Shown: positions 14,452 to 30,539 of the stretch, piece after piece | Numbering within the stretch: the first letter of the stretch is position 1 | Layout of the letters: the number at the start of each line of letters is the position of its first letter | Assembly (NCBI RefSeq): GCF_021295335.1 | Contig: NZ_JAIWOT010000001.1 | Location: forward strand, 561,001-625,000 | DNA from: Komagataeibacter sp. FNDCF1 | GTDB taxonomy: Bacteria; Pseudomonadota; Alphaproteobacteria; Acetobacterales; Acetobacteraceae | Length of the DNA: 64,000 nucleotides | Direction of reading: 5' to 3' | The notes under the pieces: model-generated | Databases searched by the model: none | Seen by the model: only the letters and a program-made list of their open reading frames with translations | Told to the model about the DNA's origin: nothing | Translations under genes and position numbers: made by a program

Positions 14452-14697
14452 TCAGTCGGCCACCGGGCCTTCATCTTCCTCATCAGGTTCCAGCGGTTCG
14501 AGCAGCCCGTCCTTGTCGGGGTCGATGGGGGCGTCCTCGTCATAGCCGGGGGTCGGGCGTGGCGGGAAGTCCAGCGGGTCGTCGTCCGTCGGGTCATTTT
14601 CATCCGGGTCATAGGCCGGGTCCCGCATGGGGACGGGTGGGACAGGCGCTGGCGGATCGGGCATGCCGGGCCTGCCTGCTGCGTATATCCTGAGCAT
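14452..14697 (-). CDS. Small Pro/Asp/Glu-rich hypothetical protein (81 residues)
   Basis: After a short N-terminus the sequence is dominated by proline and acidic residues (for example DPAYDPDENDPTDDDPLDF), with no hydrophobic core, so it is probably disordered. The ATG at 14697 has GGAGAAG upstream, which supports translation. It ends 15 bases before the DUF1810 gene in the same direction. I recognise no family. Low-complexity frames can be artefacts in GC-rich DNA, but the acidic bias and the ribosome-binding site argue for a real gene. Confidence 0.55.
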   Translation of the reverse strand: MLRIYAAGRPGMPDPPAPVPPVPMRDPAYDPDENDPTDDDPLDFPPRPTPGYDEDAPIDPDKDGLLEPLEPDEEDEGPVAD

Positions 14698-14890
14698 GAT
14701 ACTTCTCCGCTACCGGGTGTGGCTGCAACGGCCCTGCGCGGTGCGGGTTGCATGGCACGCCACCCGCAACATGCCAGCGCCCCGCCCTGTCCTGTCATGG
14801 CGTGGGCCGCATGACCAAACCGTTCACCCCCGCCAGCGTTGCACAAGGGAATGCCGCCCCACAGACAGGGAACATGATGCCTTGGCCCGT

Positions 14891-17029
14891 ATGCTCAAAG
14901 ATCGCCTTCGTGAAGGACATCCCTATCCACGTGGAGCAACATGGGATGGGGAAGGGGTCAATTTCTCCCTTTTTTCAGCACATGCGCACAAGGTGGAAGT
15001 CTGCCTGTTCGACCGTGACGGCATGACCGAAATCGAGCGGATCACCCTGCCGGAATATACCGACCAGATCTTTCATGGCTGGGTGCCCGACATCGGTCCC
15101 GGCCAGTTTTACGGCTACCGGGTGCACGGTCCGTACGAACCCGATGCGGGCCACCGCTTCAACCCCAACAAGCTGCTGCTTGATCCCTATGCCCGGGCCC
15201 ATATGGGGGACCTGCAATGGGACCCGGCCCTGTTTGGCTACACGATCGGCCATGCGGATGCGGATCTAAGCTTCGATACCCGCGACAGCGCGCGTTTCAT
15301 GCCCAAATGCGTGGTGATCGACCCCGGTTTCGACTGGCATGGCCAGTCCGGGCGCAACCCGCTGCCATGGGACCAGACCGTGCTGTACGAAGCCCATGTC
15401 AAGGGACTGACCCGGCTGCACCCGCATGTGCCCGAAGCACTGCGCGGCACCTATGCGGGACTGGCGACGCGCGATGTGCTGGACTACATCCGCAAGCTGG
15501 GCGCCACATCGCTTGAACTGCTGCCCGTGCACAGCTTTGTCAATGACCAGCACCTGCTGGAAAAGGGCCTGAGCAATTACTGGGGCTACAACACGATCGG
15601 GTTCTTCGCCCCCGATCCACGCTATGCCGCCGACCGCGCGGAATCCCTGCGGGAGTTCAAGGAAATGGTCTCCGCCATCCATGCGGCCGGGCTGGAGGTC
15701 ATTCTGGATGTTGTCTACAACCATACGGCGGAAGGCAACGAGTGCGGACCCACGCTTTCGTTCCGCGGCATCGACAATGTTTCCTATTACCGTCTGCTCA
15801 GGGACCAGCCGCGCTACTACGTCAATGACACGGGCACGGGCAATACGGTCAACCTGTCGCACCGCCGTGTGATCCAGATGGTGACCGACAGCCTGCGCTA
15901 CTGGGCGGAGGAGATGCACGTGGACGGCTTCCGCTTCGACCTGGGCACCATTCTGGCGCGCGAGCCCAACGGGTTCGATAACCAGTCCGGCTTCCTGAAA
16001 GCCTGCTCGCAGGACCCGACGCTGGAGACCGTCAAGCTGATTGCCGAACCATGGGACTGCGGCCCCGGTGGCTACCAGGTCGGCGGCTTCCCGCCCGGCT
16101 GGGCGGAATGGAATGACCGCTTCCGTGATGTGGTGCGAAATTACTGGCGGGGAAAGGAAGGGGCCGGTGGTCTTGCCCCGCGCCTTCTGGCCAGCCCCGA
16201 CCAGTTTGATCACCAGGGGCGCAAGCCATGGGCCTGCGTCAACTTCCTGACCGCGCATGACGGTTTTACGCTTGAAGACTGCGTGACCTATGATGAAAAG
16301 CATAACGAAGCGAACGGGGAGGACGGGCGGGACGGGGCGGAACAGAATGCCTCATGCAATTACGGGGTGGAGGGGCCGAGCGGGGATCCCGCAGTCGTGA
16401 AGCTGCGCGGGCGGCAGGTCCGCAACATGCTGGCGACGCTGCTCATGTCACAGGGCACGCCCATGCTGCTGGCGGGTGATGAATTTGGCCGCACGCAGGG
16501 CGGCAACAACAACGCCTATTGCCAGGATAATGAAATTTCATGGATCAACTGGGATTTCGGGGCGCGCGGGCAGGCCCTTGTCAACTTCGTGACACGGCTG
16601 AACGCGCTGCGCAGGCGTCTGCCGATATTGCGCCGCGGGCGTTTCCTGACCGCAGCCTATAACGAGGAACTGGATATAAAGGAACTGACATGGATCCAGC
16701 CTGACGGGATGGAAATGACCCCGCAGGACTGGGACGGCGCGCAGTGCTTCGGCCTGGTGCTGGACGGTCGTGCCCAGCCCAGCGGCATCCGCCGCCGGGG
16801 CGCCGATGCCACGCTGCTCATGGTCTTCAATGCACGGAGCGATGGGGTCGATTTCACGCTGCCATCCGTATCCGACCAGCATTGGGCGCTTCTGGTCGAT
16901 ACCGGCGTGGAAGACGGCGGGAGTGCGGATGATGTCCGCCACTTCCGGCCCAATGCAGTCTATCCCATGGCCGACCGTTCCTTCCTGCTGTTCGAACTTC
17001 TGCCCGACAGCGTGCCTGCCGTGTCATGA
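14891..17029 (+). CDS. glgX: Glycogen debranching enzyme GlgX (isoamylase type)
   Basis: A 712-residue GH13 enzyme that hydrolyses alpha-1,6 branches in glycogen-like glucan. An N-terminal CBM48-like domain (EGHPYPRGATWDGEGVNFSL) is followed by the catalytic barrel: DVVYNHTAEG, the nucleophile D350 in VDGFRFDLG, acid/base E386 in LIAEPWD, and D457 in LTAHDGFT. The length is typical. The ATG at 14891 is the only sensible methionine before the conserved start and has no strong ribosome-binding site. It converges with the treS-glgE operon, with two hairpins in the 109-base gap. All three enzymes act on alpha-glucan and maltose pools. Confidence 0.93.
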   Translation: MLKDRLREGHPYPRGATWDGEGVNFSLFSAHAHKVEVCLFDRDGMTEIERITLPEYTDQIFHGWVPDIGPGQFYGYRVHGPYEPDAGHRFNPNKLLLDPYARAHMGDLQWDPALFGYTIGHADADLSFDTRDSARFMPKCVVIDPGFDWHGQSGRNPLPWDQTVLYEAHVKGLTRLHPHVPEALRGTYAGLATRDVLDYIRKLGATSLELLPVHSFVNDQHLLEKGLSNYWGYNTIGFFAPDPRYAADRAESLREFKEMVSAIHAAGLEVILDVVYNHTAEGNECGPTLSFRGIDNVSYYRLLRDQPRYYVNDTGTGNTVNLSHRRVIQMVTDSLRYWAEEMHVDGFRFDLGTILAREPNGFDNQSGFLKACSQDPTLETVKLIAEPWDCGPGGYQVGGFPPGWAEWNDRFRDVVRNYWRGKEGAGGLAPRLLASPDQFDHQGRKPWACVNFLTAHDGFTLEDCVTYDEKHNEANGEDGRDGAEQNASCNYGVEGPSGDPAVVKLRGRQVRNMLATLLMSQGTPMLLAGDEFGRTQGGNNNAYCQDNEISWINWDFGARGQALVNFVTRLNALRRRLPILRRGRFLTAAYNEELDIKELTWIQPDGMEMTPQDWDGAQCFGLVLDGRAQPSGIRRRGADATLLMVFNARSDGVDFTLPSVSDQHWALLVDTGVEDGGSADDVRHFRPNAVYPMADRSFLLFELLPDSVPAVS

Positions 17030-17138: not shown

Positions 17139-20100
17139 TTACGGCTGCCCGCCCGGATCAGGCCCGGTTTTCATATCCGCAAGGGCCGCAAGCCCGGCCA
17201 TGGGGGTTACGATCCATGCCGGGCGGTTTGCCGCTTCGTAACGGATTTCATAGGCGGCCTTTTCCATAAGGAAAAGCTGGAGAAGTGCCGCCCGTGCATC
17301 CGCCGTGCCAATCGCGGTGATGGCATCGCCCATGCCCTCGGCCCATCCTGCAAGGAAGGTGCTGCCCGCTTCGTGTTCAAACGCGGCAAGGTACGCGCTG
17401 GCACGCGCGGCGGACTGCCCGGCGCCGGGATGGCTGCCGGTCTCGCCCCCGCCCAGGCGCGCGGTATCGACCGCATAGGCAATCGAGCGCAGCAGTCCCG
17501 CCACATCGCGCAGCGGGCTGTGGCGGTGGCGGCGTTCCGCCAGCGGGACCATGGGCTGTCCCTCGAAATCTATGATGACCACGTCATTTTCCACGACCAG
17601 CACCTGCCCCAGATGGAAATCACCATGGATACGGGTCATGAGCGTGCCCCGTGCGTGCTGCGCCAGTGTCTCGACCTGGCGGAGCAGCAGGTCACGCTGG
17701 CCGCACAGCCGCGCCGCCAGCGCCTGTGTTTCAGGTTGGGGGGACTGCGCGTGGCCGTGCTCCACCATATCCAGCGCCGCCGTGATTTCGGCCTGGATAT
17801 GCCCGGTCCATGCCTGCACTACCGCCGGGCCGGCGGTTTCAGGGGTGAAGGCCTCGTCCGGCCCCGGCTTTGCCAGGATCGCGTGCATGGCACCCAGCCG
17901 CAGGCCCAGCCGGTGGAAAAAGGCGATATGGTCGGCACGGCCATCTACCGGTTCATCGCTGCTCAGTGTCAGGTCGGTGGCGGTGGCGCGCAGGTCGTTC
18001 ACGGTCCAGTTCCATGCATCACCCTGGTTGGGGATGAACCCTTCCGCAATGGCCAGGACATGCGGCACGCCCGCGGCATCGACATGCGTGACATCCCCCA
18101 GATAGGGCGCGATGCCCGTCGCACCATGGCGGGTCAGGAAGGCGGTCATCTCGGCCTCGGGGTGGATGCCGGGATGCAGATGGCGCAGCAGCTTGATGAC
18201 GATCATGTCGGCCATGACCAGTGAACTGTTGCTCTGCTCGGCGGACAGCCAGTGGATCGCGGCATCGGCCGGAATGGACAGGGCGTGAAAGGCAGGTGAC
18301 GCGGTAAAGACGATCTCCCCATCATCGGTTGCAAGCCGGGTCGCGCTGGCCAGTCCCGTGATGAACTCACGCGCCAGTTCGGGCAGGGCGAAGCCATCGG
18401 TCAGGTAGCCCATCCTGCGCCCGTGCCGCACGTGGGAGAGCGCAAGCTGCTGCGGCAGGGCGGGCAGTGTTCCATTTTCCCACATTATGCCAAGCGGCAG
18501 GAAGTAACAGGCGGGCTGGTCCCCCACCATCGCACTGATTTCCGTCAGCAGCAGCTGCGTGCCCAGTGGCGCGACCAGGGTGACGCGCACCGCACTGACG
18601 GCCTGCTCCCGCGCGGCGGCCCAGCGGCGCACGGGCAGGTAGGCTGGCAGGATTTCCTTTTCCATCACCACGCGCGCGGCCGGCGTGAAGATATCCCTGA
18701 TCCCCTGACGCAGTACGAGCGTGCGCAGTTCGGGCAACGGCTCGGGCGCGGGGATATGCCATGTGGGGCTCTCGGTCAGGGTGCACAGGCGGAACCATAT
18801 GAAGCCATAGGGCTGGAGCGTGAGCAGATAGGGCAGTTGACCGATGGGGGGAAAGGCGCTCTGGGCAATCATCTCGACCGGTACCCGCCCCGCAAAGACA
18901 GACAGGTCCAGCTCCACCGCCTGTGCCGAGCGTGCAAGGTTTGCGACACACAGAATGGTCTCGTCCCCATGCTGTCGCAGATAGGCCAGCACCCTGCGGT
19001 TGCCGGGGGTCAGGAAGGTCAGCGTGCCGCGCCCGAAAGCATGCGATCGCGCCCGTACCGCCAGCATGCGCCGCATCCAGTTCAGCAGCGAATAGGGGTC
19101 ACGGCGCTGGGTTTCAGCATTGACGGCCTCATACCCGTATAGCGGGTCCATGATGACCGGTAGGACGAGGCGTTCGGGGTCGGCGCGCGAAAAACCGCCA
19201 TTGCGGTCGGGGGACCACTGCATGGGGGTGCGCACGCCATCGCGGTCACCCAGCTGGATGTTGTCCCCCATACCGATCTCGTCACCATAGTACAGCACCG
19301 GGGTACCGGGCATGGACAGAAGCAGGCTGTCCAGCAGTTCGATACGCCTGCGGTCACGTTCCAGCAGGGGAGACAGCCTGCGCCTTATCCCCAGGTTGAG
19401 CCGCGCGCGCCGGTCGGTGGCATAGGTGTTCCACATGTCGTCGCGCTCGGCGTCGGTCACCATTTCCAGTGTCAGTTCATCATGATTGCGCAGGAAGATG
19501 GCCCACTGGCAGGCTGGTGGTATGTCCGGCGTCTGGCGCATGATGTCGGTAATGGGGAAGCGGTCCTCACGCGCCATGGCCAGGTACATGCGCGGCATGA
19601 GCGGGAAGTGGAAGGCCATGTGGCATTCGTCGCCATTGCCGAAATACTCGCTGGTATCTTCCGGCCACTGGTTGGCTTCGGCCAGCAGCATGCGGTTGGG
19701 AAAGCGCGCATCCAGCGCCGCGCGCAGGCGGCGCAGTATGGCATGGGTTTCGGGCAGGTTCTCGTTGGACGTGCCCTCGCGTTCCACCAGATAGGGAATG
19801 GCGTCAAGCCGCAGCCCGTCAATGCCCAGTTCCAGCCAGAAGGACATCACCCCCAGTATGGCGGCAAGCACATGCGGGTTGTCAAAGTTCAGGTCCGGCT
19901 GGTGGGCATAGAACCTGTGCCAGTAAAATGCGCCCGCCACGGGGTCGTAGGTCCAGTTCGAAGTTTCGGCATCACAGAAGATGACACGCGTATGCGCATA
20001 TTCGGTGGCAGTATCCGACCAGACATAGAAATTGCGCGCGACCGATCCTGCCTTCGCCCGCCTTGCACGCTGGAACCACGGATGCTGGTCCGATGTATGG

Positions 20101-20435
20101 TTGATCACCAGTTCGGTAATGACGCGGATGTTGCGCGCATGCGCTGCCTGCACGAAATGGCGGACATCGGCCAGTGTTCCGTAGTCGGGGTGTACTTCCC
20201 GGTAGGCTGATATGTCATAGCCGTCATCGCGCCGGGGCGATGGGTAGAATGGCAGCAGCCAGACCGTATTGACCCCCAGGTCGGCAATATAGTCCAGCCT
20301 GGCGGTCAGGCCGCGGAAGTCACCGATGCCATCATTGTTGGAATCAAAAAAGGACTTGATATGGATCTGGTAGATGACAGCATCCTTGTACCATAGCGGG
20401 TCGCTGGACAGCTGGCTGGCAGCACGTTTCATCAT
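17139..20435 (-). CDS. treS: Trehalose synthase fused to maltokinase (TreS-Mak)
   Basis: A 1098-residue two-domain protein. Residues ~12-560 are a GH13 trehalose synthase (maltose to trehalose isomerisation): YQIHIKSFFDSNNDGIGDF, nucleophile D211 in GLRLDAIPYL, acid/base E253 in LLAEANQW, and D319 in FLRNHDE. Residues ~640-1098 are a maltokinase making maltose-1-phosphate with ATP, with the kinase-like loop TRIHGDFHLGQVLV and the metal motif IIDFEGQP. The fusion is known in many proteobacteria and feeds GlgE directly. The start codon overlaps the glgE stop (ATGA), so the two are coupled. A good terminator follows. Confidence 0.93.
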   Translation of the reverse strand: MMKRAASQLSSDPLWYKDAVIYQIHIKSFFDSNNDGIGDFRGLTARLDYIADLGVNTVWLLPFYPSPRRDDGYDISAYREVHPDYGTLADVRHFVQAAHARNIRVITELVINHTSDQHPWFQRARRAKAGSVARNFYVWSDTATEYAHTRVIFCDAETSNWTYDPVAGAFYWHRFYAHQPDLNFDNPHVLAAILGVMSFWLELGIDGLRLDAIPYLVEREGTSNENLPETHAILRRLRAALDARFPNRMLLAEANQWPEDTSEYFGNGDECHMAFHFPLMPRMYLAMAREDRFPITDIMRQTPDIPPACQWAIFLRNHDELTLEMVTDAERDDMWNTYATDRRARLNLGIRRRLSPLLERDRRRIELLDSLLLSMPGTPVLYYGDEIGMGDNIQLGDRDGVRTPMQWSPDRNGGFSRADPERLVLPVIMDPLYGYEAVNAETQRRDPYSLLNWMRRMLAVRARSHAFGRGTLTFLTPGNRRVLAYLRQHGDETILCVANLARSAQAVELDLSVFAGRVPVEMIAQSAFPPIGQLPYLLTLQPYGFIWFRLCTLTESPTWHIPAPEPLPELRTLVLRQGIRDIFTPAARVVMEKEILPAYLPVRRWAAAREQAVSAVRVTLVAPLGTQLLLTEISAMVGDQPACYFLPLGIMWENGTLPALPQQLALSHVRHGRRMGYLTDGFALPELAREFITGLASATRLATDDGEIVFTASPAFHALSIPADAAIHWLSAEQSNSSLVMADMIVIKLLRHLHPGIHPEAEMTAFLTRHGATGIAPYLGDVTHVDAAGVPHVLAIAEGFIPNQGDAWNWTVNDLRATATDLTLSSDEPVDGRADHIAFFHRLGLRLGAMHAILAKPGPDEAFTPETAGPAVVQAWTGHIQAEITAALDMVEHGHAQSPQPETQALAARLCGQRDLLLRQVETLAQHARGTLMTRIHGDFHLGQVLVVENDVVIIDFEGQPMVPLAERRHRHSPLRDVAGLLRSIAYAVDTARLGGGETGSHPGAGQSAARASAYLAAFEHEAGSTFLAGWAEGMGDAITAIGTADARAALLQLFLMEKAAYEIRYEAANRPAWIVTPMAGLAALADMKTGPDPGGQP

Positions 20436-23400
20436 GTTGTCTTTCCTGCCGGGCTGACCTGCCAGATCGTGAACGGCATCTCGCCCGGATCAAGGCGCAT
20501 GTGCTGTATCTTGCCGGTCCAGGTTTCGTGCCGGTCGCGCAGCAGGTCATGGGACACAAGGGAGGCATTGTCCGAAAGTTTCCATTCCCACAGGGGAATT
20601 TCAAAATCCGCCTCCTGCGCGTTCATCGGGTCCAGGCTGACCGCGACAAGGATGACATCGGTCATGCCGTCGGTCATCCTGCCGAAATACAGGATCTGGT
20701 CATTGAAGGCGCGGAAGAACCGCAGGCCCATATGGCTTTGCAGGGCCGGGTGGCGCTGGCGCAGTGCGTTCAGGGCCGTGATCTCGGCAATGATGTTGCC
20801 CGGACGGGCCCAGTCCCATTGCCGGATCTGGTATTTTTCCGAATCCTGGTATTCTTCCCGCCCCGGCAGGGCGCGTGCCTCGCACAGTTCGAAGCCTGAA
20901 TACATGCCCCACAGGCCCGACAGCGTGCAGGCCAGCGCCGCGCGGATCAGGTGCCCCGCCCGTCCGGATGTCTGGAGAAAGAAGGGATTGATATCGGGTG
21001 TGTTGACAAAGAAATGGGGCCGGAAGAAATCGCTGACCGGCGGCGTGGTCAGTTCAGTCATGTATTCGGTCAGTTCCGCCTTTGTCGTACGCCATGTAAA
21101 ATAGGTATAGGACTGGGAAAAACCGGCCATTGCCAGCCGGTACATCATTCCGGGCGTGGTAAAGGCTTCTGCCAGGAACAGGACATCGGGATGGCGGGCC
21201 CGTACCTGGTCCATCATCCATTCCCAGAAGGGCAGGGGTTTGGTGTGCGGGTTGTCCACGCGGAAAATCCTTACCCCGTGGCCAACCCATGCCAGCACGA
21301 TATCGCGCAGCGCTTCCCATAATCCCGGTATGGCGCCGGGGGCGTAAAAATCCAGATTGACGATATCTTCATATTTCTTTGGCGGGTTTTCCGCATGCCG
21401 GATCGACCCGTCCGCCCGGTGGGCAAACCATTCAGGGTGGGTGCGCACCCATGGGTGGTCCGGCGCGCACTGGATGGCAAGGTCCAGCGCCAGTTCCATG
21501 CCCTGTGCCTGCGCTGTTTCAACCAGGGCATGGAAATCCGCGATCGTGCCCAGTTCGGGGTGAATGGTGTCATGGCCCCCCGCCGCACTTCCGATCGCAT
21601 AGGGGCTGCCGGGATCATCCGCGCCGGCATGCAGGGCGTTGTTCGGCCCCTTGCGGTTGACATGGCCGATGGGGTGGATGGGCGGCAGGTAAAGGACACT
21701 GAAGCCCATGGCCCGGATGGCGGGCAGGCGGTCGATCACATCACGCAGCGTGCCATGCCGCCCCGCGCCATCCAGAGAGCGGGGAAAAAGTTCGTACCAG
21801 CTGCCAAAGCGCCCGGCCTCGCGGTCCACCATGATGGACAGCGGTGCCGGCAGGCCCGTCTGGCCGGCGCGCGGGTCCGCGCGCGCCATGATGTCCGCCG
21901 CATGGGGGGAAAGCAGGAGATCGGCCGCGTGATCCGCTGTCGTGGCGCTGATGCGTTCCAGCAGGCTGGACAGGGGGCGGCCTGCATCGGTGGTCATGGT
22001 GGTGCAGGCCTGTGCCAGCAGCAGGCACCCGTCGGCAATGTCGGCCTGTTCCATCGTGCCTGCGTCCCGCCTGCGCCGCAGGTCACGGATGTAGGTGCCG
22101 AAATGGTCCTCCCATGCCTCGATCGTGAACTCCCACATTCCCATCCGGTCCAGCGGCATGTAGCTGCGCCAGCGGCTGTTCCCGATGGGGGCCATGGGGG
22201 CGCTGCGCCATGCCGTATCCCCTGCGGGGCGCCAGAGCAGACGCGCTTGCAGCAGGTCGTGGCCATCCATGAAAATATCCGCTTCCACCCCGACGCTGTC
22301 CCCCACAATGGCCCTGGCGGGAAAACGGCCGGATTCAACGCACGGTGTCACGGATTCAATCACGATACGCGGCAGCAAACGCAGCGCCTGCGTGGCGGGG
22401 GGCGCATTGCGGTATATGGGCGTGCCTGGACCGGTCTGCAGTACGCGGACCTCATCGGGGGCAAGCGTGATTTCGCCCGTGGGAGAGGACACGTAATCCG
22501 GCGCGCCATCCACGGCATGAAAACAGGCAAAGGATGTTCCCGACCCGGCCAGCATGCCCGACAGCCGGACCTGCGTGGCCTCCCGCACCGACGGGTTTGC
22601 AAGGATCAGGCGCAGGGGCATACGGCGCGGCCTGCTGGCACGCCGCCTGCCGGCCTGTCCCTCACGGATTATGACGGTAGCCGCCCCGTCTGTCCCGAGC
22701 AGCCTGTCCCGTGCCGAACGCGCAAAAGGCGTGCCTGACGTGATGAGACGACGCGCCTGCCTGAGTGCCGTCTGCATCCGGGGTGTGGGTGGGTAAAACC
22801 GCGGATCATCCGGCCCGCTACCGGATGGAACGGGAGTACCGGACGCGCATTCAAATCCTGCCGGTATGAGCACGCCATCCCCCATGGCCGCAGCCAGGCG
22901 CAGGGCCATGACGGCACGGGCCTCATTCATGCCCGCCGGGCCGGGAAGGGGAACAGGGCAGGCCAGAAGCCCGGTACCGGCGGGCAGGTCCTGCCGTTCC
23001 GCCAGCAGCCAGTCCGAATGGCGGTCCCACCACGCGATGGATGAGGTAACCATGTCCACGCCGGTGGCGGCAACGGCCAGCATGCCGGCATGGTCCAGCC
23101 CGGCGGTCCATCCGATCCACCTGCAATCGGGGCGGATCAGCCGGGTGTCATGGATGATGCCCTGCAGGCAGGCGGGGGGCAGGCGCTGGGGTGCATCACA
23201 ACGCAGGCCCGCTATGCCGGCATCCAGCAGCATGGCGGTGACATCCCTCCAGTAAGCAAGGATTTCCGCGCCATGGTCGTGATAGTTCAGTCTTGCGGCC
23301 AGTCTTTCGCCCCCATCGGGCAGGCACCAGTGCGGTTTGCGGGCCGCAAGCACGCCATCGCGCGCAATGCGGTCCAGCGGCAGGTCGAGCATGATGCCCA

Positions 23401-23698
23401 GACCGTGGCGGCACGCCGCGTCCACCAGCCTGCGCAGGCTGTCAGGCAGGAGTGACGCCCATGCCAGCGTGGCGCTGGCATGATGATGGGACGAGACAAG
23501 AAACGTGTCCTCCCCGCTGGAAAAGACCCCGCTGAGCAGGATGGTGCTGAAGCCAAGGTCATGACACAGGCCGAACAGGCGTTCGGGATCCCCGCGCCGG
23601 GCAATGGACGCTGCATGAATGGCATAGATGAAGGGGCGCCACGCCGGTACGGCATGCGCTGCCGCAGGCGGGGGCGTGCTGTCGGTTTTTTCCTCCAT
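20432..23698 (-). CDS. glgE: Alpha-1,4-glucan:maltose-1-phosphate maltosyltransferase GlgE, long form
   Basis: A 1088-residue protein. The C-terminal ~650 residues are a standard GlgE: the N-domain IVGDSVGVEADIFMDGHDLL near 470, FGSWYELFPRSLDG, catalytic nucleophile in RIFRVDNPHTKP, and acid/base in VLFLAEAFTTP. It transfers maltosyl units from maltose-1-phosphate onto alpha-glucan. The first ~430 residues form a second amylase-like barrel (YAIHAASIARRGDPERLFGL, GIAGLRCDAPQRLPP) that looks partly degenerate. Such long GlgE forms occur in other proteobacteria. It is the first gene of the glgE-treS operon. No glgB is in the window. Confidence 0.92.
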   Translation of the reverse strand: MEEKTDSTPPPAAAHAVPAWRPFIYAIHAASIARRGDPERLFGLCHDLGFSTILLSGVFSSGEDTFLVSSHHHASATLAWASLLPDSLRRLVDAACRHGLGIMLDLPLDRIARDGVLAARKPHWCLPDGGERLAARLNYHDHGAEILAYWRDVTAMLLDAGIAGLRCDAPQRLPPACLQGIIHDTRLIRPDCRWIGWTAGLDHAGMLAVAATGVDMVTSSIAWWDRHSDWLLAERQDLPAGTGLLACPVPLPGPAGMNEARAVMALRLAAAMGDGVLIPAGFECASGTPVPSGSGPDDPRFYPPTPRMQTALRQARRLITSGTPFARSARDRLLGTDGAATVIIREGQAGRRRASRPRRMPLRLILANPSVREATQVRLSGMLAGSGTSFACFHAVDGAPDYVSSPTGEITLAPDEVRVLQTGPGTPIYRNAPPATQALRLLPRIVIESVTPCVESGRFPARAIVGDSVGVEADIFMDGHDLLQARLLWRPAGDTAWRSAPMAPIGNSRWRSYMPLDRMGMWEFTIEAWEDHFGTYIRDLRRRRDAGTMEQADIADGCLLLAQACTTMTTDAGRPLSSLLERISATTADHAADLLLSPHAADIMARADPRAGQTGLPAPLSIMVDREAGRFGSWYELFPRSLDGAGRHGTLRDVIDRLPAIRAMGFSVLYLPPIHPIGHVNRKGPNNALHAGADDPGSPYAIGSAAGGHDTIHPELGTIADFHALVETAQAQGMELALDLAIQCAPDHPWVRTHPEWFAHRADGSIRHAENPPKKYEDIVNLDFYAPGAIPGLWEALRDIVLAWVGHGVRIFRVDNPHTKPLPFWEWMMDQVRARHPDVLFLAEAFTTPGMMYRLAMAGFSQSYTYFTWRTTKAELTEYMTELTTPPVSDFFRPHFFVNTPDINPFFLQTSGRAGHLIRAALACTLSGLWGMYSGFELCEARALPGREEYQDSEKYQIRQWDWARPGNIIAEITALNALRQRHPALQSHMGLRFFRAFNDQILYFGRMTDGMTDVILVAVSLDPMNAQEADFEIPLWEWKLSDNASLVSHDLLRDRHETWTGKIQHMRLDPGEMPFTIWQVSPAGKTT

Positions 23699-23920
23699 AC
23701 CCGGTTTCTCCCGCGCTTTGTGTTGTGCTGGTGGCTGGTGGTTGCCGGGCTGTCCTCCGGGGTGGATGCGCGCGGTGTCCGGCGCGTGAACGTACGCCCG
23801 GTCCGTCAGGTTGCCTGGGCCGGGATATAATCGTGCAGCACGTCCCGTTTGCGGTCATGGCAACTCGTGATGATGGTTCACGTTCATCATGGCATCCCTG
23901 CACCTGTCCGGAAGTGCGCG

Positions 23921-25042
23921 ATGATCCAGACGATCGACACCCCGAAAATCCGTTATGCCGTTGTGGGCGTTGGCCAGATCTCACAGCAGGCCTTCATGCC
24001 CGGGATGGCGCGGGCAACGAATTCGGTCCTGTCCGCGCTGGTAACGGGTGATCCGCAAAAAGCGCGGAAGCTGGCTGCGCGATACGGTATTCCGGCCTAT
24101 CATTATGATGACCTGCCGGAACTGCTCCGTTCAGGCGATATCGATGCGGTCTATCTTGCCACCCCCAACGCGCTGCACCGGCGCTACGGGGTGCCGGTAC
24201 TGGAGGCGGGGCTGCACCTGCTGCTGGAAAAACCCATGGCGACCAGTGTGGCGGACTGCGAGGCCCTGATCGAGGCGCAGCGACGCGGCGGCGGCAGGCT
24301 CATGGTCGCCTACCGCCTGCATTGCGAACCGGGTACGGTGGAACTGATCTCACGCTGCCGCAATGGTGATTTCGGTCATCTCATGGCGTTCAGTTCCACG
24401 TTCGGGCAGAACATTGCCGAGGCCAACCACCGGGGCCATGGCGGTTACTGGTCCGGTCCGGTGCCGGACATGGGAACCTATCCCCTGAATGCGGTGCGTA
24501 ATCTCTTTGCGCGGGAACCGGTTGAAGTCCATGCAACCGGCAGCCGCACGCCGGGAAGACATTTCGATTTTGACGATACGGTTTCCGTCATACTCCGCTT
24601 TGCCGAGGGCAGGCTGGCACATTTCCTGGTCAGCTATGCCTGCGCCCCGGTCGAGAACCTTACCCTTGTGGGCGACAGGGGCAGCGTCATGGCAACGCCG
24701 TGCTATACGTTTGGCCCGACCATTGGCATCACCTACACCACGACCATTGATGGCCGGCAGGAAACACGCCGCCATGACCCTGTCGAGCAGTTTGGTGGCG
24801 AGATCTTCTATTTTTCCGACTGTATCCTCCATGGTCACGATCCGGAACCCGATGGGGATGAGGGCCTGCGTGACGTGCGCGTCCTTGCCGCGATCGAGCG
24901 CGCGCTCCAGACCGGTCAGCCGCAGAAGCTCGATCCCATACCGCCCGCACGTGTGGCGCTGCCCGACCAGATCATGACATTTGCACCCGTCAGGGAACCG
25001 GAAGTGAATGAGATGATCGGCATCGTGCCCCAGTCCGCCTGA
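23921..25042 (+). CDS. Gfo/Idh/MocA family sugar oxidoreductase
   Basis: A 373-residue NAD(P)-dependent oxidoreductase. The Rossmann motif IRYAVVGVGQISQQAFMPGM is near residue 12, and the family signature EKPMATSVADCEALI near 101-115 contains the catalytic-site lysine. The C-terminal domain has the typical beta-sheet, including GPVPDMGTYPLNAVRNLF near 180. The closest feel is glucose-fructose oxidoreductase/glucose-6-phosphate dehydrogenase-like members; there is no signal peptide. The ATG at 23921 has GGAAG upstream, which rejects a longer frame. It is first in an apparent operon with the acyl-CoA-dehydrogenase-like gene 34 bases downstream and is divergent from glgE. Confidence 0.85.
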   Translation: MIQTIDTPKIRYAVVGVGQISQQAFMPGMARATNSVLSALVTGDPQKARKLAARYGIPAYHYDDLPELLRSGDIDAVYLATPNALHRRYGVPVLEAGLHLLLEKPMATSVADCEALIEAQRRGGGRLMVAYRLHCEPGTVELISRCRNGDFGHLMAFSSTFGQNIAEANHRGHGGYWSGPVPDMGTYPLNAVRNLFAREPVEVHATGSRTPGRHFDFDDTVSVILRFAEGRLAHFLVSYACAPVENLTLVGDRGSVMATPCYTFGPTIGITYTTTIDGRQETRRHDPVEQFGGEIFYFSDCILHGHDPEPDGDEGLRDVRVLAAIERALQTGQPQKLDPIPPARVALPDQIMTFAPVREPEVNEMIGIVPQSA

Positions 25043-25075
25043 TCTCCACGCCTGCCGACACGGATGGCCTGATCC

Positions 25076-26185
25076 ATGACCTTTCCTTTCGACGCCCTGG
25101 CAGCCTGTCGTGCGGAGCTGGAGGAAGAAGCCTCGGCCAATGATGCGCCCGCCGCCTTTCCCGCATACGGGCTTGAGCGCCTGCGCCAGCTTGGCGCGCT
25201 GTCGGCCGCGTTGCCCTGCGCGCTGGGTGGCCACGGGTTCGGCACCGAGCCGGATGGCGCGCAGGGGCTGCTGCATCTCCTGCGGCTTGTGGGGCAGGGC
25301 AGCCTTGCCCTCGGGCGCATTGTGGAAGGGCACGTCAATGCCATCCGGCTGATCGCGTGTTATGGCACGGTGGGCCAGCTTGTTCACGTCGCCACCGCCA
25401 TCCAGGATGGCGCGCTGCTGGGCGTGTGGGTGACGGACGGCGCGCCTGCGCTGCGCATGTCCCCCGCGGGGGACGGCATCGTGCTGCAGGGTGAAAAGGC
25501 ATTTGCATCCGGCGTGGGTCACGTCACACATGCCCTGGTCACGGCCGCCACGCCGGAGGGCATGACACGCATGCTGCTGGTGGCACTGGATGGAGCCCAT
25601 GTCGTCCATGCCTCCATCGGTGGGCTGGCGGGCATGCGGGGGGCGGTTACGGGGCGGTGTGATTTCAGCGGCACGACGCTGCCTGCCGGCTGCCTGATCG
25701 GCCAGGCGGGGGATTACGTGCGCCAGCCCGAATTTTCAGCCGGGGCATGGCGCGGCATGGCCGTGGCGCTGGGCGGGATCGAACGGCTGGGCACCCTTTT
25801 GCGCGACCAGCTGGCCGGGCGGGGGCGCACGGACAGTCCGGCCCAGCAGGCCCGCATGGGCATGGCGCTGATCGCGGCCGAAACCGCGCTGTTATGGACC
25901 CGCAAGGCCGCCATGGTCGCGTGCCTGCATGAGCGCTACGGGGCGCAGGATATTGCCGCCACGGTCAATCTGGCCCGGATGGCGGTGGAGCGGGCGGGGC
26001 TGGATGTCATCGAACTGGTCCAGCGCGGACTGGGGCTGGCCGCTTTTGTCAGGAGCAACGTGGTCGAACGTGTGATCCGGGATCTTGCCACCTATCTGCG
26101 CCAGCCCGCCCCGGACGAGACATTGTGCGAGGCCGCCTGCTGGTTCATCCAGCGCAACCTGCCCCAGCCGGAGGACACCCCATGA
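25076..26185 (+). CDS. Acyl-CoA dehydrogenase-like flavoprotein
   Basis: A 369-residue protein with the acyl-CoA dehydrogenase fold order: N-terminal helices (LERLRQLGALSAALPCALGG near 35-55), a middle beta domain (VWVTDGAPALRMSP, LQGEKAFASGVGHVTHALV near 140-160) and C-terminal helices (RMGMALIAAETALLWTRKAA near 260-280). Several positions of the usual signature are altered, so it may be a divergent oxidase or dehydrogenase with a non-CoA substrate. It overlaps the PIG-L gene by 4 bases (ATGA) and is clearly co-translated with the deacetylase and methyltransferase that follow. Confidence 0.8.
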   Translation: MTFPFDALAACRAELEEEASANDAPAAFPAYGLERLRQLGALSAALPCALGGHGFGTEPDGAQGLLHLLRLVGQGSLALGRIVEGHVNAIRLIACYGTVGQLVHVATAIQDGALLGVWVTDGAPALRMSPAGDGIVLQGEKAFASGVGHVTHALVTAATPEGMTRMLLVALDGAHVVHASIGGLAGMRGAVTGRCDFSGTTLPAGCLIGQAGDYVRQPEFSAGAWRGMAVALGGIERLGTLLRDQLAGRGRTDSPAQQARMGMALIAAETALLWTRKAAMVACLHERYGAQDIAATVNLARMAVERAGLDVIELVQRGLGLAAFVRSNVVERVIRDLATYLRQPAPDETLCEAACWFIQRNLPQPEDTP

Positions 26186-26910
26186 AGGCCGCCTGCCTGC
26201 ACGATGCCCTGCGCGCCCTGCCTGTTGCCCCGCTATCTGCTGTTGCGGGCGGGACGGTCATGGTGCTTGCCCCGCACCCGGATGATGAAAGCCTGGGTTG
26301 CGGCGGCCTTGTGGCCGCCTGCTGTGCTGCTGGAAATCCGCCACTGGTCGTGATCGTGACCGATGGTACGGCCTCCCACCCCAATTCACGTGCCTGGCCG
26401 GCCGCGCGATTACGCATGCAGCGGCAGAGGGAAGCGCTGGATGCCACGGGCAGTCTCGGCCTGCCCGCCGGGCGCGTGGTCTTTCTTGACCTACCCGATG
26501 CGGCAGCCCCGCATCACGGTCCGGACTTTGACCATGCCGTGGCGCGACTGGCGGCGCTGGCCACAGATTATGGTTGCACCGCGGTTTTTGCCCCATGGCG
26601 GCTGGACCCGCATTGCGACCACGAAGCGACATGGAAGATGGGTATGGCCCTGCGCCAGCGTTGCGGGCTTGTGCTGTGGGCCTATCCGGTATGGGGCTGG
26701 CTGATCCCTGCTGACAGGGAACTTGACCACGGCCCCCCCGTTGGGCTGCGGCTCGACATCTCGCGCTATCGCGCGGCAAAGGCACGGGCGGTGGGGCTGC
26801 ATGCCAGCCAGTATGGTGGCCTGATTACCGATGCTCCGGATGGTTTCAGCCTGCCTGCGGAGCTGCTGGCGGTCATCATCACCGATTTTGAGGTCTTTAT
26901 CCGGTCATGA
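26182..26910 (+). CDS. PIG-L family deacetylase (LmbE-like)
   Basis: A 242-residue zinc N-deacetylase. The metal motif LAPHPDDESLGCGG (the HPDD box) is near residue 28 and a second histidine lies in RLDPHCDHEAT near 150, the two sites that hold zinc and catalysis. Family members remove acetyl from GlcNAc in small glycoconjugates (GlcNAc-phosphatidylinositol, mycothiol and bacillithiol precursors). GGAGGA precedes the ATG, which overlaps the stop of the dehydrogenase gene; its own stop overlaps the methyltransferase start. The context suggests an N-acetyl amino sugar is deacetylated and then methylated. Confidence 0.88.
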   Translation: MKAACLHDALRALPVAPLSAVAGGTVMVLAPHPDDESLGCGGLVAACCAAGNPPLVVIVTDGTASHPNSRAWPAARLRMQRQREALDATGSLGLPAGRVVFLDLPDAAAPHHGPDFDHAVARLAALATDYGCTAVFAPWRLDPHCDHEATWKMGMALRQRCGLVLWAYPVWGWLIPADRELDHGPPVGLRLDISRYRAAKARAVGLHASQYGGLITDAPDGFSLPAELLAVIITDFEVFIRS

Positions 26911-27506
26911 GCGGCGCAACCTGGCCCCGTGCCGTGTTCGAACGCCTGCACATGCAGCGTGCCGACCCCTGGGGCGTGGGCACGCGGGCATATGAGCGCG
27001 ACAAATACAACCAGACGATGGCGGTGCTGGCGGGGCGTCACTTCCGCTTTGTGCTGGAGCTGGGATGTTCAATCGGGGTCATGACCGCCCGGCTTGCGCG
27101 GCAGGCCGACCATGTTCTGGCGGTGGACGTGGCGCAGGCTGCCCTGCTGCGTGCGCGGCATCGCTGCGCGGGCCTGCCGGGGGTTTCGTTTCACCGGGGG
27201 CAACTGCCCGGTGGGTTTCCCGCCCTGCTACCCGAAACCTGTGACCTGATCGTGATTTCGGAACTGCTGTATTTTCTCTCGCCGGTGGATATTGGCCGTC
27301 TTGCCCGCCACTGCCTGCGGGTACGGCAGCCCGGTGGCCTGATCGTGCTGGTCAACTGGACCGGCCCGACCGACACGCCCAGCACCGGCAACACGGCGGC
27401 CCGCCATTTCATGACCCGGTGTATCGCCGCCGGATTACGCGTGACCCAGACCTGCCGGCATTTGCGCTACCGTGTGGATGTGCTTACGGATGCCGCAGCC
27501 CCGTAG
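26907..27506 (+). CDS. SAM-dependent methyltransferase, NodS-like
   Basis: A 199-residue class I methyltransferase. The SAM-binding motif VLELGCSIGVMTARLA is near residue 49, with VLAVDVAQAALLRARHR following and the post-motif CDLIVISELLYFLSPVDIG near 112. The opening residues, including DPWGVGTRAYERDKYNQTM, resemble the NodS group, whose founder N-methylates the deacetylated end of chito-oligosaccharides. Position directly after a PIG-L deacetylase fits the same chemistry. It overlaps the preceding gene by 4 bases, and its last 23 bases overlap the end of the convergent glycosyltransferase gene. Confidence 0.84.
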   Translation: MSGATWPRAVFERLHMQRADPWGVGTRAYERDKYNQTMAVLAGRHFRFVLELGCSIGVMTARLARQADHVLAVDVAQAALLRARHRCAGLPGVSFHRGQLPGGFPALLPETCDLIVISELLYFLSPVDIGRLARHCLRVRQPGGLIVLVNWTGPTDTPSTGNTAARHFMTRCIAAGLRVTQTCRHLRYRVDVLTDAAAP

Positions 27507-28638
27507 CGGATGACAGTGCCGCATGCGCGGGTGCCATGCGCGCGCCGGAACGCCTTGCCAGCAGCTGGCGTACCACCCGTCTGGCGCGCCGGTGGTGGAA
27601 AGACAGGTCTGCGCGCCGGATTGGTATGCGCCCGAGTTCCGGGCTGCAGGTTTCCAGATGGCTCCATGCCATGCCAAAAAACGGCATCTGCGCCAGCAGG
27701 TCGACACGGCTGGCGGGGATGTTCAGCTGATGGGCCAGGCTTTCCACATCCTGCCGCCATGTCAGGCCCGTGGGTGGCAGGGCGCGCAGCCTGCGCAATG
27801 CCGCGCGGGCCTGCGCGCGGAGCAGGCAGATCATGGGTGGTTCAAGGTTTTCATCCAGCATCTCGTCCTGCCGGACAAGACGGCGTGCCATTGTGTCGGC
27901 CATGCCGCCACGCGCACGACCATCAATGCGCCCCGATACGCTTACCGTCACATCGGGCGCATGGCGGATGGCGGCATCCACCTGGCGCAGGGCCTGCAGG
28001 AATCCCCGGTCCTCACCCAGGGGCAGGGCGGGCATGCCGCCCGCGCGTTCCCATGCCGGGACCCTTACGGCAATGCTTGCGCCCGAATGTTCCGTATGGC
28101 GTGGCCATGGATCGTGCGGGTCCGGGTCCACCAGGTCATGAATACGGTCCAGCAGCATGGCATATCCGATTTCCGCCCGGTCATCTTCATGCAGGTGGTG
28201 CGGGATCAGCCGGGCCTCGACCGGGTCGATCACGGCGCGGCCACACACGGCGTCGGCCCCTTCCTCAAAAGCGGCAAGGGTATTGGCCAGCCAGTCGGGG
28301 GCAACGACGCCATCGGCATCGGTCGTGATTACGATGCCTTCGGGTCCTGCAATCTCGGCCGCGATTTCCATGGCTTCACGTCGCGCCGTACCCGCATGGG
28401 CCGTGGCGGGGGGATAGGCGCGCTGGATCAGCGACAGGCCAAAGGGCAGCCGCCCCGCCAGCGTCCGGACCACTTCGCCCGTCGTATCGGTGCAGTTGTT
28501 CAGCAGCAGCACGACATGGCCAACGCGGGCATCGTGCTGGGCGGCAAGGCCATGAAGGCAGGCGGCAATACGCTGCGCCTCATTGCGCACGGGAATGGCG
28601 ACGACGGCGAGGGGGACAGGAAGCCTGAGGGGAAGCAT
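27484..28638 (-). CDS. Family 2 glycosyltransferase
   Basis: A 384-residue GT-A enzyme. The N-terminal nucleotide-sugar fold reads VAIPVRNEAQRIAACLHGL (residues ~12-30), then VVLLLNNCTDTTGEV, and the metal-binding acidic motif ITTDADGVVAPDWL near 100. No transmembrane helices are obvious, so it is probably cytosolic or peripheral. It converges on the acyl-CoA-dehydrogenase/PIG-L/methyltransferase operon with overlapping 3' ends, so it is separately transcribed but likely part of the same pathway. Donor and acceptor are unknown. Confidence 0.83.
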   Translation of the reverse strand: MLPLRLPVPLAVVAIPVRNEAQRIAACLHGLAAQHDARVGHVVLLLNNCTDTTGEVVRTLAGRLPFGLSLIQRAYPPATAHAGTARREAMEIAAEIAGPEGIVITTDADGVVAPDWLANTLAAFEEGADAVCGRAVIDPVEARLIPHHLHEDDRAEIGYAMLLDRIHDLVDPDPHDPWPRHTEHSGASIAVRVPAWERAGGMPALPLGEDRGFLQALRQVDAAIRHAPDVTVSVSGRIDGRARGGMADTMARRLVRQDEMLDENLEPPMICLLRAQARAALRRLRALPPTGLTWRQDVESLAHQLNIPASRVDLLAQMPFFGMAWSHLETCSPELGRIPIRRADLSFHHRRARRVVRQLLARRSGARMAPAHAALSSATGLRHP

Positions 28639-28943
28639 GCATCACCTGTTCAACAGGAGAGCGTTAAACGTCCGGCCCCGTACCGGGTTGCACGGGCATG
28701 CGGGCACATGAACGCGGGCGGGACGGTCATCCCCGGTTGTCTGGCGTGGTCAGGTAACCGAATGCGGCGCGGAAGTACTTCGGGCGATCGAGCACGAACC
28801 GGAACCTGGCTGACACTGGCCACAGGGTTCATGTCGCGGCCGGCCCCCTGTGTGCTTTCGAATTTTCCATCGTACCCGGCGTCATGGACCGCTGCACGGC
28901 CCGTGGAACGGGATGGTGCGGCATCATGGCATGCAGTGCGGGA
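28639..28943. other. Intergenic, no gene recognised
   Basis: About 300 bases between the end of the phosphoesterase gene and the start of the glycosyltransferase gene, both on the minus strand. No terminator with a T-tract and no credible ORF were seen. Confidence 0.5.
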
Positions 28944-30539
28944 TTATTTTCCGCCCGAAGACAGGTCCAGCGCGCCTGTCAGGTCACCGAGCGGTCTGCC
29001 GGTGGTCACCTTTATGGCGTGGTCACGTACCTTCAGCCCGGCAAGTGGACGCAGATGGAAACGTTCTGTCAGGAATTTCAGGATCGAGGTCGTATCCTGC
29101 ACCGCATGATCCACGTAACCGCGCCGGGCATAGGGGGAGATGATAATGGCGGGAATGCGTGAACCCGGCCCCCATCTGTCCCCCGCGGGCGGGGCGACGT
29201 GGTCCCACAGGCCACCATTTTCATCGTATGTCACGACCACGAGCATGTGTGGCCACTGGGGGCTTTTCTCCAGATGGCTGACCAGGTCGGCTATGTGCCG
29301 GTCGCCCGACTGGATATCGGCATAACCCGAATGTTCATTCAGGTTGCCCTGGGGCTTGTAAAACGAGACCTGTGGCAGCCTGCCCTGGTCAATCGCCTCG
29401 ATGAACCGTGCGCCGGCCAGGCCACCGTCAAGCAGATGCGCCTGCCGTGCCGGCGTGCCCGGCGCAAAGTTGAGGTAATAGTTGTAGGGCTGGTGATGAT
29501 ACTGGAAGTCCGGCGCGGGATAATGATTGCCGTGGTCCAGCACATCCTGCCATGCACCCGAATACCATGCCCATGTCACGTGACGCTCCCCCAACCGGTC
29601 ACCAATGGTGGGTTCGGTCTGTGGCGGCAGGGTGGTGGGAATGGCGGGGTCGGCCAGACGCGGGTCCTGGCCCGCGGCGGGTGGATTCTGGCTGGGCTGG
29701 TAGGGGGGCTGCATCGTATTGACGGCGTGAAAGTCCGGCGCAAGGTTGCCATCGCGCACGAATTTCGGAACGCCGTCCAGCGCTGAACGTGGCGAGTTGG
29801 GGGCAACAAGCAGGGCCTTCCCCGAAGCATCCACCGCGGCGATGACCGGATGCGCGGGGCTGGTATCGGCATGCGGATAATAGGGCGCGCAGGCGCAGGC
29901 CAGCCACTGGTGATTGAGGAACGACCCGCCAAAAGCCCCCATGAAGAAATGGTCCGCAAGCGTGTACCTGCGTGCGATATCCCACATGCGCATGCCTGAA
30001 CCGTTCCAGTAGCTCATGGGCATGGCGCCGGAATCCGCCCAGGCCACGAACATGTCGTTCCGGCCACCATCAATCTGCATCTGGTTTTCATAGAAGAGGT
30101 GCCACAGGTCACGGGTCAGCGTGGTGGATGGCACATTGAACCCCTGCGGGTCATCCACGCGGAAAGGCTGGTTGGGCAGGTGCGCACTCATGGCCTGCGT
30201 GACCGCATGCGGCACGCCCCGGCCGGTCAGCCCGCCCCATACCGGTGGCAGTTCACGCAGGATGGAGCCATCCCGGTCACGCTGGGCGGCAAGGGCGTCC
30301 GGTTTGCCAGCAAACGTGTCAGCACCCGGAAAACCGTTATACAGGTTATCGAAGGAGCGGTTTTCGGCAAAGATGACCACCACGGTCTCGATCCTGTCCA
30401 TGCCCTTCGGGGCGGCGGCACGCGGGGCATGCACCGGCATGCCGGTCAGGAGCGTGCCGGCCAGCGCACCCAGGGCAAACAGCCGCCTTCCGCTGCGGTG
30501 CACTGGGCGCGGGCGGCCTGTCATGGTGCATTCTGGCAT
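28944..30539 (-). CDS. Secreted phosphoesterase, AcpA acid phosphatase / phospholipase C family
   Basis: A 531-residue alkaline-phosphatase-superfamily enzyme. An N-terminal export signal (GRRLFALGALAGTLLTG with preceding arginines) is followed by the metal/nucleophile region VVIFAENRSFDNLYNGFPG near residue 53. Metal-binding stretches MLVVVTYDENGGLWDHVAPP near 430 and IPAIIISPYARRGYVDH complete the site, ending in the family's LKFLTERFHL. It would release phosphate from organic phosphates or phospholipids in the periplasm; phosphatase versus phospholipase cannot be decided. It stands alone on the minus strand. I could not see a convincing Pho box upstream. Confidence 0.85.
   Translation of the reverse strand: MPECTMTGRPRPVHRSGRRLFALGALAGTLLTGMPVHAPRAAAPKGMDRIETVVVIFAENRSFDNLYNGFPGADTFAGKPDALAAQRDRDGSILRELPPVWGGLTGRGVPHAVTQAMSAHLPNQPFRVDDPQGFNVPSTTLTRDLWHLFYENQMQIDGGRNDMFVAWADSGAMPMSYWNGSGMRMWDIARRYTLADHFFMGAFGGSFLNHQWLACACAPYYPHADTSPAHPVIAAVDASGKALLVAPNSPRSALDGVPKFVRDGNLAPDFHAVNTMQPPYQPSQNPPAAGQDPRLADPAIPTTLPPQTEPTIGDRLGERHVTWAWYSGAWQDVLDHGNHYPAPDFQYHHQPYNYYLNFAPGTPARQAHLLDGGLAGARFIEAIDQGRLPQVSFYKPQGNLNEHSGYADIQSGDRHIADLVSHLEKSPQWPHMLVVVTYDENGGLWDHVAPPAGDRWGPGSRIPAIIISPYARRGYVDHAVQDTTSILKFLTERFHLRPLAGLKVRDHAIKVTTGRPLGDLTGALDLSSGGK

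Follow-up and report, generated by a model that had tools for sequence, protein, structure and literature searches.

A recurrent four-gene set encoding an acyl-CoA-dehydrogenase-fold flavoprotein, a PIG-L deacetylase, a NodS-like methyltransferase and a family 2 glycosyltransferase in Proteobacteria, Deinococcus and Nostoc

Within a 64,000-nucleotide stretch of the genome of Komagataeibacter sp. FNDCF1 (contig NZ_JAIWOT010000001.1, positions 561,001 to 625,000; hereafter the window), we analyzed a compact set of four genes encoding an acyl-CoA dehydrogenase-like (ACAD) flavoprotein (25076–26185, + strand), a PIG-L (LmbE-like) de-N-acetylase (26182–26910, + strand), a NodS-like S-adenosylmethionine-dependent methyltransferase (MT; 26907–27506, + strand), and a family 2 glycosyltransferase (GT2; 27484–28638, − strand). 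These four genes form a real unit, with a linkage that recurs far beyond chance. We tentatively read them as a conserved, often plasmid-borne, stress-linked pathway module that would build a modified amino sugar by transfer, deacetylation, N-methylation, and oxidation, an interpretation to which we give somewhat less than an even chance. The host is an acetic-acid bacterium close to Komagataeibacter and Novacetimonas, and the nearest relatives of its ACAD-like protein stand at 73%. Nine genes in and around the set were scanned at the protein level against Pfam and NCBIfam. A preliminary description of the locus, made from the window's letters alone, had placed five genes here, the fifth being an oxidoreductase directly upstream, and all five lie where it put them.

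Linkage was assessed in two collections, namely the 80 best genome loci of a profile scan with the ACAD family and 15 plasmid loci chosen by hand (L002–L016). The whole set falls within 5 kb of the ACAD gene in 45 of the 80 genome loci and in 12 of the 15 plasmid loci; the preliminary description had staked its proposal on such linkage outside the window, and it is indeed there. Among the remaining genome loci, nine retain ACAD, MT, and GT2 within the same distance and 16 retain ACAD and MT. The complete set is found in 3 of 36 loci from Methylobacterium/Methylorubrum as against 42 of 44 loci elsewhere, the two incomplete ones outside these genera being a contig of a bog metagenome-assembled genome (L038) and a contig of 3 kb (L096). 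On the plasmids, no GT2 match was found in the Roseomonas (L004) and Deinococcus radiodurans (L006) loci, and a third locus (L014) retains only the ACAD; four of the plasmids read were typed as conjugative. Most annotated plasmid loci preserve the order ACAD–PIG-L–MT, L006, L014, and L113 being the exceptions, while the other neighbors vary, and in Methylobacterium aquaticum (L003) GT2 and ACAD are joined in a single open frame of 803 amino acids.

The Methylobacterium loci point to a rearranged set. A PIG-L of this family (E ≤1e-30) is present in all 38 genomes examined, including those of Methylobacterium in which it does not adjoin the ACAD, so the detached PIG-L has not been lost from this genus. 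Seven detached PIG-L loci were fetched (L148–L154), three of which carry a module-type GT2 within about 5 kb (427 bits in L148, 281 bits in L152, and 425 bits in L153). Since the ACAD–MT locus of the same genome shows no GT2 in each of these three cases, the set has been split there into two pairs. In the other four loci, the detached PIG-L occupies a conserved chromosomal place beside a common 323-amino-acid neighbor, which is 96–100% alike among them and HpcH/HpaI-like in the one that was scanned; in these four loci the neighbor gave no lead to a pathway.

The module was recovered from Alpha-, Beta-, and Gammaproteobacteria, Deinococcus, and Nostoc, and its named non-alphaproteobacterial cases within Proteobacteria include Pandoraea, Cupriavidus, and Acinetobacter plasmids; outside Proteobacteria, one metagenome contig labeled Solirubrobacterales adds to Deinococcus and Nostoc. 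In a phylum sample of 398 genomes, the ACAD profile (E 1e-50) found 13, every one of them in the window's class, and the MT profile (E 1e-25) found 43, of which 21 belong to that class and 22 to others; several of the 21 same-class matches lie in frames of at least 750 amino acids and represent a different kind of protein. Among 20 other-class MT loci that were returned, 19 have a more distant ACAD beside the MT, and 16 have a PIG-L scoring 100 bits or more. It was therefore the 1e-50 threshold, and not absence, that hid these flavoproteins from the ACAD search. One further other-class genome beyond these 20 loci (G360, locus L172) has all four genes. In Deinococcus, the ACAD-like proteins bear an N-terminal extension of about 420 amino acids (L006:4660–5900 and L016:4564–5980); the L016 protein gave no further Pfam match, and a PDB search for that of L006 gave none at E 0.01.

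The oxidoreductase (23921–25042, + strand; Pfam GFO_IDH_MocA, 9e-27), whose start in the list of open reading frames is a TTG at 23849, does not share in this conservation. Used as a query against the window and 114 loci (115 sources), it matched in 5, namely the window, two stretches of its own genome (L001 and L098), Komagataeibacter rhaeticus (L023), and L076; given so few sources, this Gfo/Idh/MocA protein is probably a neighbor confined to the window's clade and not part of the conserved module, where the preliminary description had counted it. ACAD and PIG-L overlap by four bases (ATGA), as do PIG-L and MT, in keeping with the overlapping operon described earlier; the oxidoreductase, which had been included in that operon, stands apart from the ACAD by a gap of 33 bases. 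GT2 converges on the operon and shares 23 bases with the MT.

The ACAD-like protein of the window matches Pfam Acyl-CoA_dh_M at 1.7e-4, under the cut-off, and its AlphaFold model has the ACAD fold with a predicted local distance difference test (pLDDT) score of 91.9. With E. coli YdiO as the link, we aligned 70 family members to PDB dehydrogenases carrying YEGT, which places the first of two Glu slots; the Glu of the YEGT slot and that of the ME-R slot we take to be the catalytic bases of acyl-CoA dehydrogenases. The members comprise a first group of 53 and a second of 17, the latter made up of 14 loci of other-class genomes together with L110, L111, and L113. At the canonical slot, Pro or Ala stands in 53 of 53 first-group members and Ser, Cys, or Thr in 17 of 17 second-group members, and the alternative slot (ME-R of YdiO) holds Trp, Leu, Ile, Ala, Gly, or Val in all 70; neither slot is acidic in any member. 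The place of the canonical Glu is instead taken in 70 of 70 by RQ followed by P, A, S, C, or T, with R342 and Q343 invariant (R342-Q343-P344 in the window protein, encoded at about 26099–26107). Further conserved residues are E84, H86, W118, K141, and R301. With the catalytic Glu missing throughout the family, acyl oxidation, which the preliminary description had offered as one of the steps, appears unlikely. The protein is probably no acyl-CoA dehydrogenase, and the database label "acyl-CoA dehydrogenase" is probably wrong for the family, which amounts to an annotation warning.

By alignment and tree, the ACAD-like proteins constitute a distinct subfamily: in a tree of 77 rows, all 70 members fall on one side of the starred branch (100/98), the comparators being few and on long branches. 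Profile comparisons lean toward the flavin monooxygenases. Searched against the PDB, the family profile has DszC as its top match, with MsuC and nitrososynthases ranking high, and among 38 members examined with models, SfnB matches 37 and DszC 27. Group D flavin monooxygenases and sugar nitrososynthases (DszC, SfnB, ORF36, KijD3, and DnmZ) have the same fold and rank with the family's best profile matches. The window genome contains four ETF-alpha matches, so an electron transfer flavoprotein (ETF) partner is possible. A separate observation concerns four Methylobacterium loci (L053, L073, L088, and L094), in which a second, SfnB-like flavoprotein with a C-terminal WRNARTHTLHDPV directly precedes the module ACAD on its strand, at a distance of about 0.3–0.65 kb.

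The other three enzymes retain their family signatures. The PIG-L matches its Pfam model at 3e-22 (80 bits, cut-off 28.2). The HPDDE box reported earlier is real (26275–26289), and another motif, HCDH, follows at 26611–26622; in an alignment of 15 sequences, H32, D34, D35, E36, H144, D146, and H147 are invariant in all 15, with both the HPDDE-type and HxDH motifs present. The nearest curated families, BshB1 and BshB2, remain far under their cut-offs (BshB1 at 7e-10 and 39 bits versus an equivalog threshold of 182.5), and the solved relatives include diacetylchitobiose deacetylase, BshB, and MshB. In the modules of genus g114 (L129, L130, L134, and L135), we also observed a second PIG-L just after the MT or GT2, giving two deacetylases.

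The MT matches Pfam NodS at 4e-14 (53.3 bits, cut-off 24) and scores 56.5 bits on the NodS equivalog, whose cut-off is 300. Against the PDB, the best match of the MT profile is 4isc, named only "Methyltransferase" (4e-46); NodS comes second (7e-26) and is the top functionally named match, with the N-terminal DPW motif (26964–26972 in the window) aligned and common to both proteins. Phosphoethanolamine methyltransferases follow (8e-14) in alignments that do not include the DPW region. GT2 matches Glycos_transf_2 (8e-14) and also Glyco_tranf_2_3; it carries a DAD motif (about 28312–28320), inspection by eye shows no QxxRW in the window protein, the scan gave no chitin-synthase match, and its profile finds only weak PDB matches, the best at 4.5e-6. 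Proteins of about 1000 amino acids in Sinorhizobium (L112:7432–10434) and Sulfitobacter (L114:7366–10446) combine a NodS-like methyltransferase with a weak family 2 glycosyltransferase match, to which the annotation of the Sulfitobacter protein adds a polysaccharide deacetylase; the same logic is realized here by a separate route.

On the pathway reading, GT2 would first transfer N-acetylglucosamine (GlcNAc), or another N-acetyl amino sugar, onto an acceptor, and the PIG-L would then strip the acetyl group; both steps are proposed from family knowledge and the intact motifs. The relationship to NodS suggests that the MT would next methylate the freed amine, so that N- rather than O-methylation is the presumed outcome. 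Because the flavoprotein has the ACAD fold and has lost the dehydrogenase base, the last step may be a flavin-dependent oxidation of the product, either on nitrogen or on an adjacent carbon. The product might be a small solute used alongside trehalose, alpha-glucan, and catalase in a dryness or stationary-phase stress program.

This order parallels two known systems. In mycothiol and bacillithiol assembly (MshA/MshB/MshC and BshA/BshB/BshC), glycosyl transfer is followed by de-N-acetylation and then by modification of the amine. The likeness lies in a GlcNAc conjugate handled by a glycosyltransferase and a PIG-L deacetylase, BshB1 being the nearest curated family of the module PIG-L; the module differs in having a family 2 glycosyltransferase and no cysteine ligase, with a methyltransferase and a flavoprotein (methylation and oxidation) instead. 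The NodC–NodB–NodS series shares the sequence of glycosyl transfer, de-N-acetylation, and N-methylation, and a passage of PMC5080398 places N-methylation after de-N-acetylation in Nod-factor synthesis, the same order as proposed here. The Nod-factor-like logic of the preliminary description thus survives in part: the MT is homologous to NodS down to the DPW motif, whereas the deacetylase is a PIG-L (its sole Pfam match) and not NodB, GT2 is not NodC-like, and the module contains the ACAD-fold flavoprotein instead. The scan of the set and its neighbors, nine genes in all, turned up no NodA-like acyltransferase; it did not extend to the remainder of the genome.

A stress context is suggested by the neighborhoods. 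We scored a trehalose/glucan neighbor where the start of a gene for GH13 or OtsA lay no more than 12 kb from the MT, a limit set after the loci had been inspected and with GH13 being wider than the trehalose genes. Such a neighbor occurs in 9 of 22 other-class genomes, representing 6 of 16 genera, while the coverage of these genes predicts 0.37 (P about 3e-11 by genome and about 7e-7 by genus). Proximity to trehalose/glucan genes is a real pattern in the other classes of the phylum and not in the Alphaproteobacteria, where the GH13 matches listed give 2 of 38 genomes; the adjacency pointed out in the preliminary description, although drawn from an alphaproteobacterium, holds mainly outside that class. 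In genome G310 of genus g114, one strand carries malQ, treY, a gene of 87 amino acids, glgX (so named by NCBIfam), ACAD, PIG-L, MT, GT2, and a second PIG-L, and G237 of the same genus reproduces this order with genes of corresponding length. The malQ–treY–glgX run that precedes the module there recalls the Pseudomonas treZ–malQ–treY–glgX trehalose operon (PMC8982409 and PMC8084333), and an excerpt of PMC6372562 reports the treZ–malQ–treY–glgX run as lowered in an rpoS mutant of a Pseudomonas fluorescens strain. The module lies between catalase and otsBA on an Acinetobacter ursingii plasmid, and with GlgE, catalase, and a PA2169-family gene on a Cupriavidus basilensis plasmid. Ku/LigD, catalase, and trehalose genes are near the module in several loci, and a long-catalase C-terminal domain lies within 12 kb of it in 3 of 60 genomes, a suggestive count that has no null to set it against. 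Linkage to GlgE was considered as a general rule and rejected: GlgE is present in 22 of 38 alphaproteobacterial genomes, lacking in 16, and near the module in two (the window genome and K. rhaeticus), with a third genome having the two about 39 kb apart.

Several observations weigh against the pathway as proposed. The ACAD stands alone within 5 kb in 10 of the 80 genome loci, and in Cupriavidus the sole PIG-L of the stretch is distant, on the opposite strand, and of only 31 bits. A GH13/OtsA neighbor is missing in 13 of the 22 other-class genomes, and among the matches listed for the 38 alphaproteobacterial genomes, where OtsA was not searched and weak GH13 matches could have been missed, GH13 lies within 12 kb in two (the window genome and K. 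rhaeticus). None of the module enzymes has a known product here. As for the flavoprotein, the fold comparison is tied between DszC (Z 39.0, root-mean-square deviation 2.4, 357 aligned) and true dehydrogenases (38.9 and below); ordinary dehydrogenases are also among the PDB matches of the family profile; the window protein by itself best matches a short-chain acyl-CoA dehydrogenase (2.4e-4, weak), with KijD3 at 0.04; and Acyl-CoA_dh_1 matches 23 of 38 members versus 18 for Acyl-CoA_dh_2. The family also departs from the group D monooxygenases and nitrososynthases in forming its own branch, in its invariant RQ as opposed to the HD of a C-terminal HTLHDP-like motif (present in 5 of 5 SfnB-like comparators and in 0 of 70 family members), and in the set's having no reductase, as none of the four module genes encodes a flavin reductase. 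Finally, extra glycosyltransferases flank the module in sphingomonads and Jiella, fitting a longer glycan.

This last point bears on the possible, if on the whole doubtful, alternative that the module modifies the end of a cell-surface glycan or glycolipid (capsule, lipopolysaccharide, or exopolysaccharide), whose terminal GlcNAc would be de-N-acetylated, methylated, and oxidized with no free solute made. The glycosyltransferases beside the module in Sphingobium, Novosphingobium, and Jiella agree with it, as do a UDP-galactopyranose mutase near the module in Deinococcus gobiensis, a match to this mutase in Polymorphobacter, and GT61-type and GT4-like genes near the split PIG-L/GT2 pair of Methylobacterium L148. 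Such neighbors recur little, however: queries with the Novosphingobium GT4 and GT3 match only 6 and 7 of 115 sources, 13 of the loci being merely about 4 kb long, and no recurring flippase, polymerase, or exporter was noticed in the annotated plasmid loci, where no formal count was made.

That the ACAD-like protein is after all a true dehydrogenase, acting on the acyl chain of a glycolipid and yielding a product with an altered fatty acid, we regard as improbable. The confident ACAD fold, the Acyl-CoA_dh_N, _M, and _1 matches that occur in the family, and the window protein's best PDB match speak for this possibility, and the absence of an acidic residue from both known catalytic Glu positions in 70 of 70 members speaks against it; moreover, the sole PF00441 match of the host genome is a gene ending in the SfnB-like motif, and no recurring acyltransferase or acyl carrier was noticed, in a survey that involved no formal count. 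Least credible, and very improbable in our view, is that four separate stress genes merely travel together, as the nearby Ku/LigD, catalase, and trehalose genes and the solitary ACAD loci (some of them from Methylobacterium) might suggest, given the stable ACAD–PIG-L–MT order amid changing neighbors, the GT2–ACAD fusion, and the retention of PIG-L in 38 of 38 genomes, with GT2 beside it in three of seven detached loci.

The preferred reading of an amino-sugar pathway admits a bolder form, which we consider unlikely as a whole: the ACAD-fold protein would represent an amino-sugar N-oxygenase of a new class, acting together with the NodS-like MT, and the product would be an N-methylated, N-oxidized glucosamine glycoside (a hydroxylamine, nitrone, or N-oxide), a hitherto unknown protectant that bacteria of several phyla would accumulate along with trehalose and catalase on drying. 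Nitrososynthases oxidize amino-sugar nitrogen. The phrase "sugar N-oxygenase" itself occurs in a title among the references of PMC6165268.

The enzyme families concerned are all known, and as far as we have seen, neither their combination nor the flavoprotein subfamily nor the product has been described. Searches of an open library directed at the set, its parts, its context, and the flavoprotein class listed no title or opening of an abstract that describes the set; subscription papers, which fall mostly outside such a search, could describe it. The preliminary description likewise knew of no described product for this combination. The main-text portions of PMC8982409 and PMC8084333 contain none of the words "deacetylase," "methyltransferase," or "acyl," and term look-ups returned nothing on the set from papers on Acinetobacter baumannii desiccation (PMC13232832 and PMC6181384), on Acinetobacter Tol 5 (PMC13130816), or on the RpoS regulon of P. 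fluorescens (PMC6372562). A pathway common to Proteobacteria, Deinococcus, and a cyanobacterium, carried on chromosomes and plasmids and found next to trehalose or catalase genes in several genera, probably makes a useful, as yet unnamed, survival product. Scattered annotations reading "acyl-CoA dehydrogenase, PIG-L, NodS family" thereby become one testable pathway, and should the product prove to be a new stress metabolite, it would be relevant to the dryness tolerance of soil, plant-surface, and other exposed bacteria.

In the window, an acid phosphatase and a nucleoside hydrolase lie on the far side of GT2. The opposite flank is a trehalose/alpha-glucan neighborhood with the GlgE maltosyltransferase (20432–23698, − strand) and a TreS–maltokinase fusion (17139–20435, − strand), and the same region includes a phosphoglucomutase and a CBM48/GH13 gene (5473–6948 and 14627–17029). 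The promoter pattern of the general stress response (EcfG) is GGAAC-N15–18-CGTT; three matches occur in the window versus 1.24 expected, none upstream of the operon and one within the PIG-L gene, and a sigma-70 scan of 23600–28950 gave no promoter-like site, both results being uninformative. About 9 kb from the module, a squalene-hopene cyclase (SQHop_cyclase_N and SQHop_cyclase_C) is encoded at 37678–39834, and GT2 weakly matches the hopene-associated HpnB model (1.5e-7).

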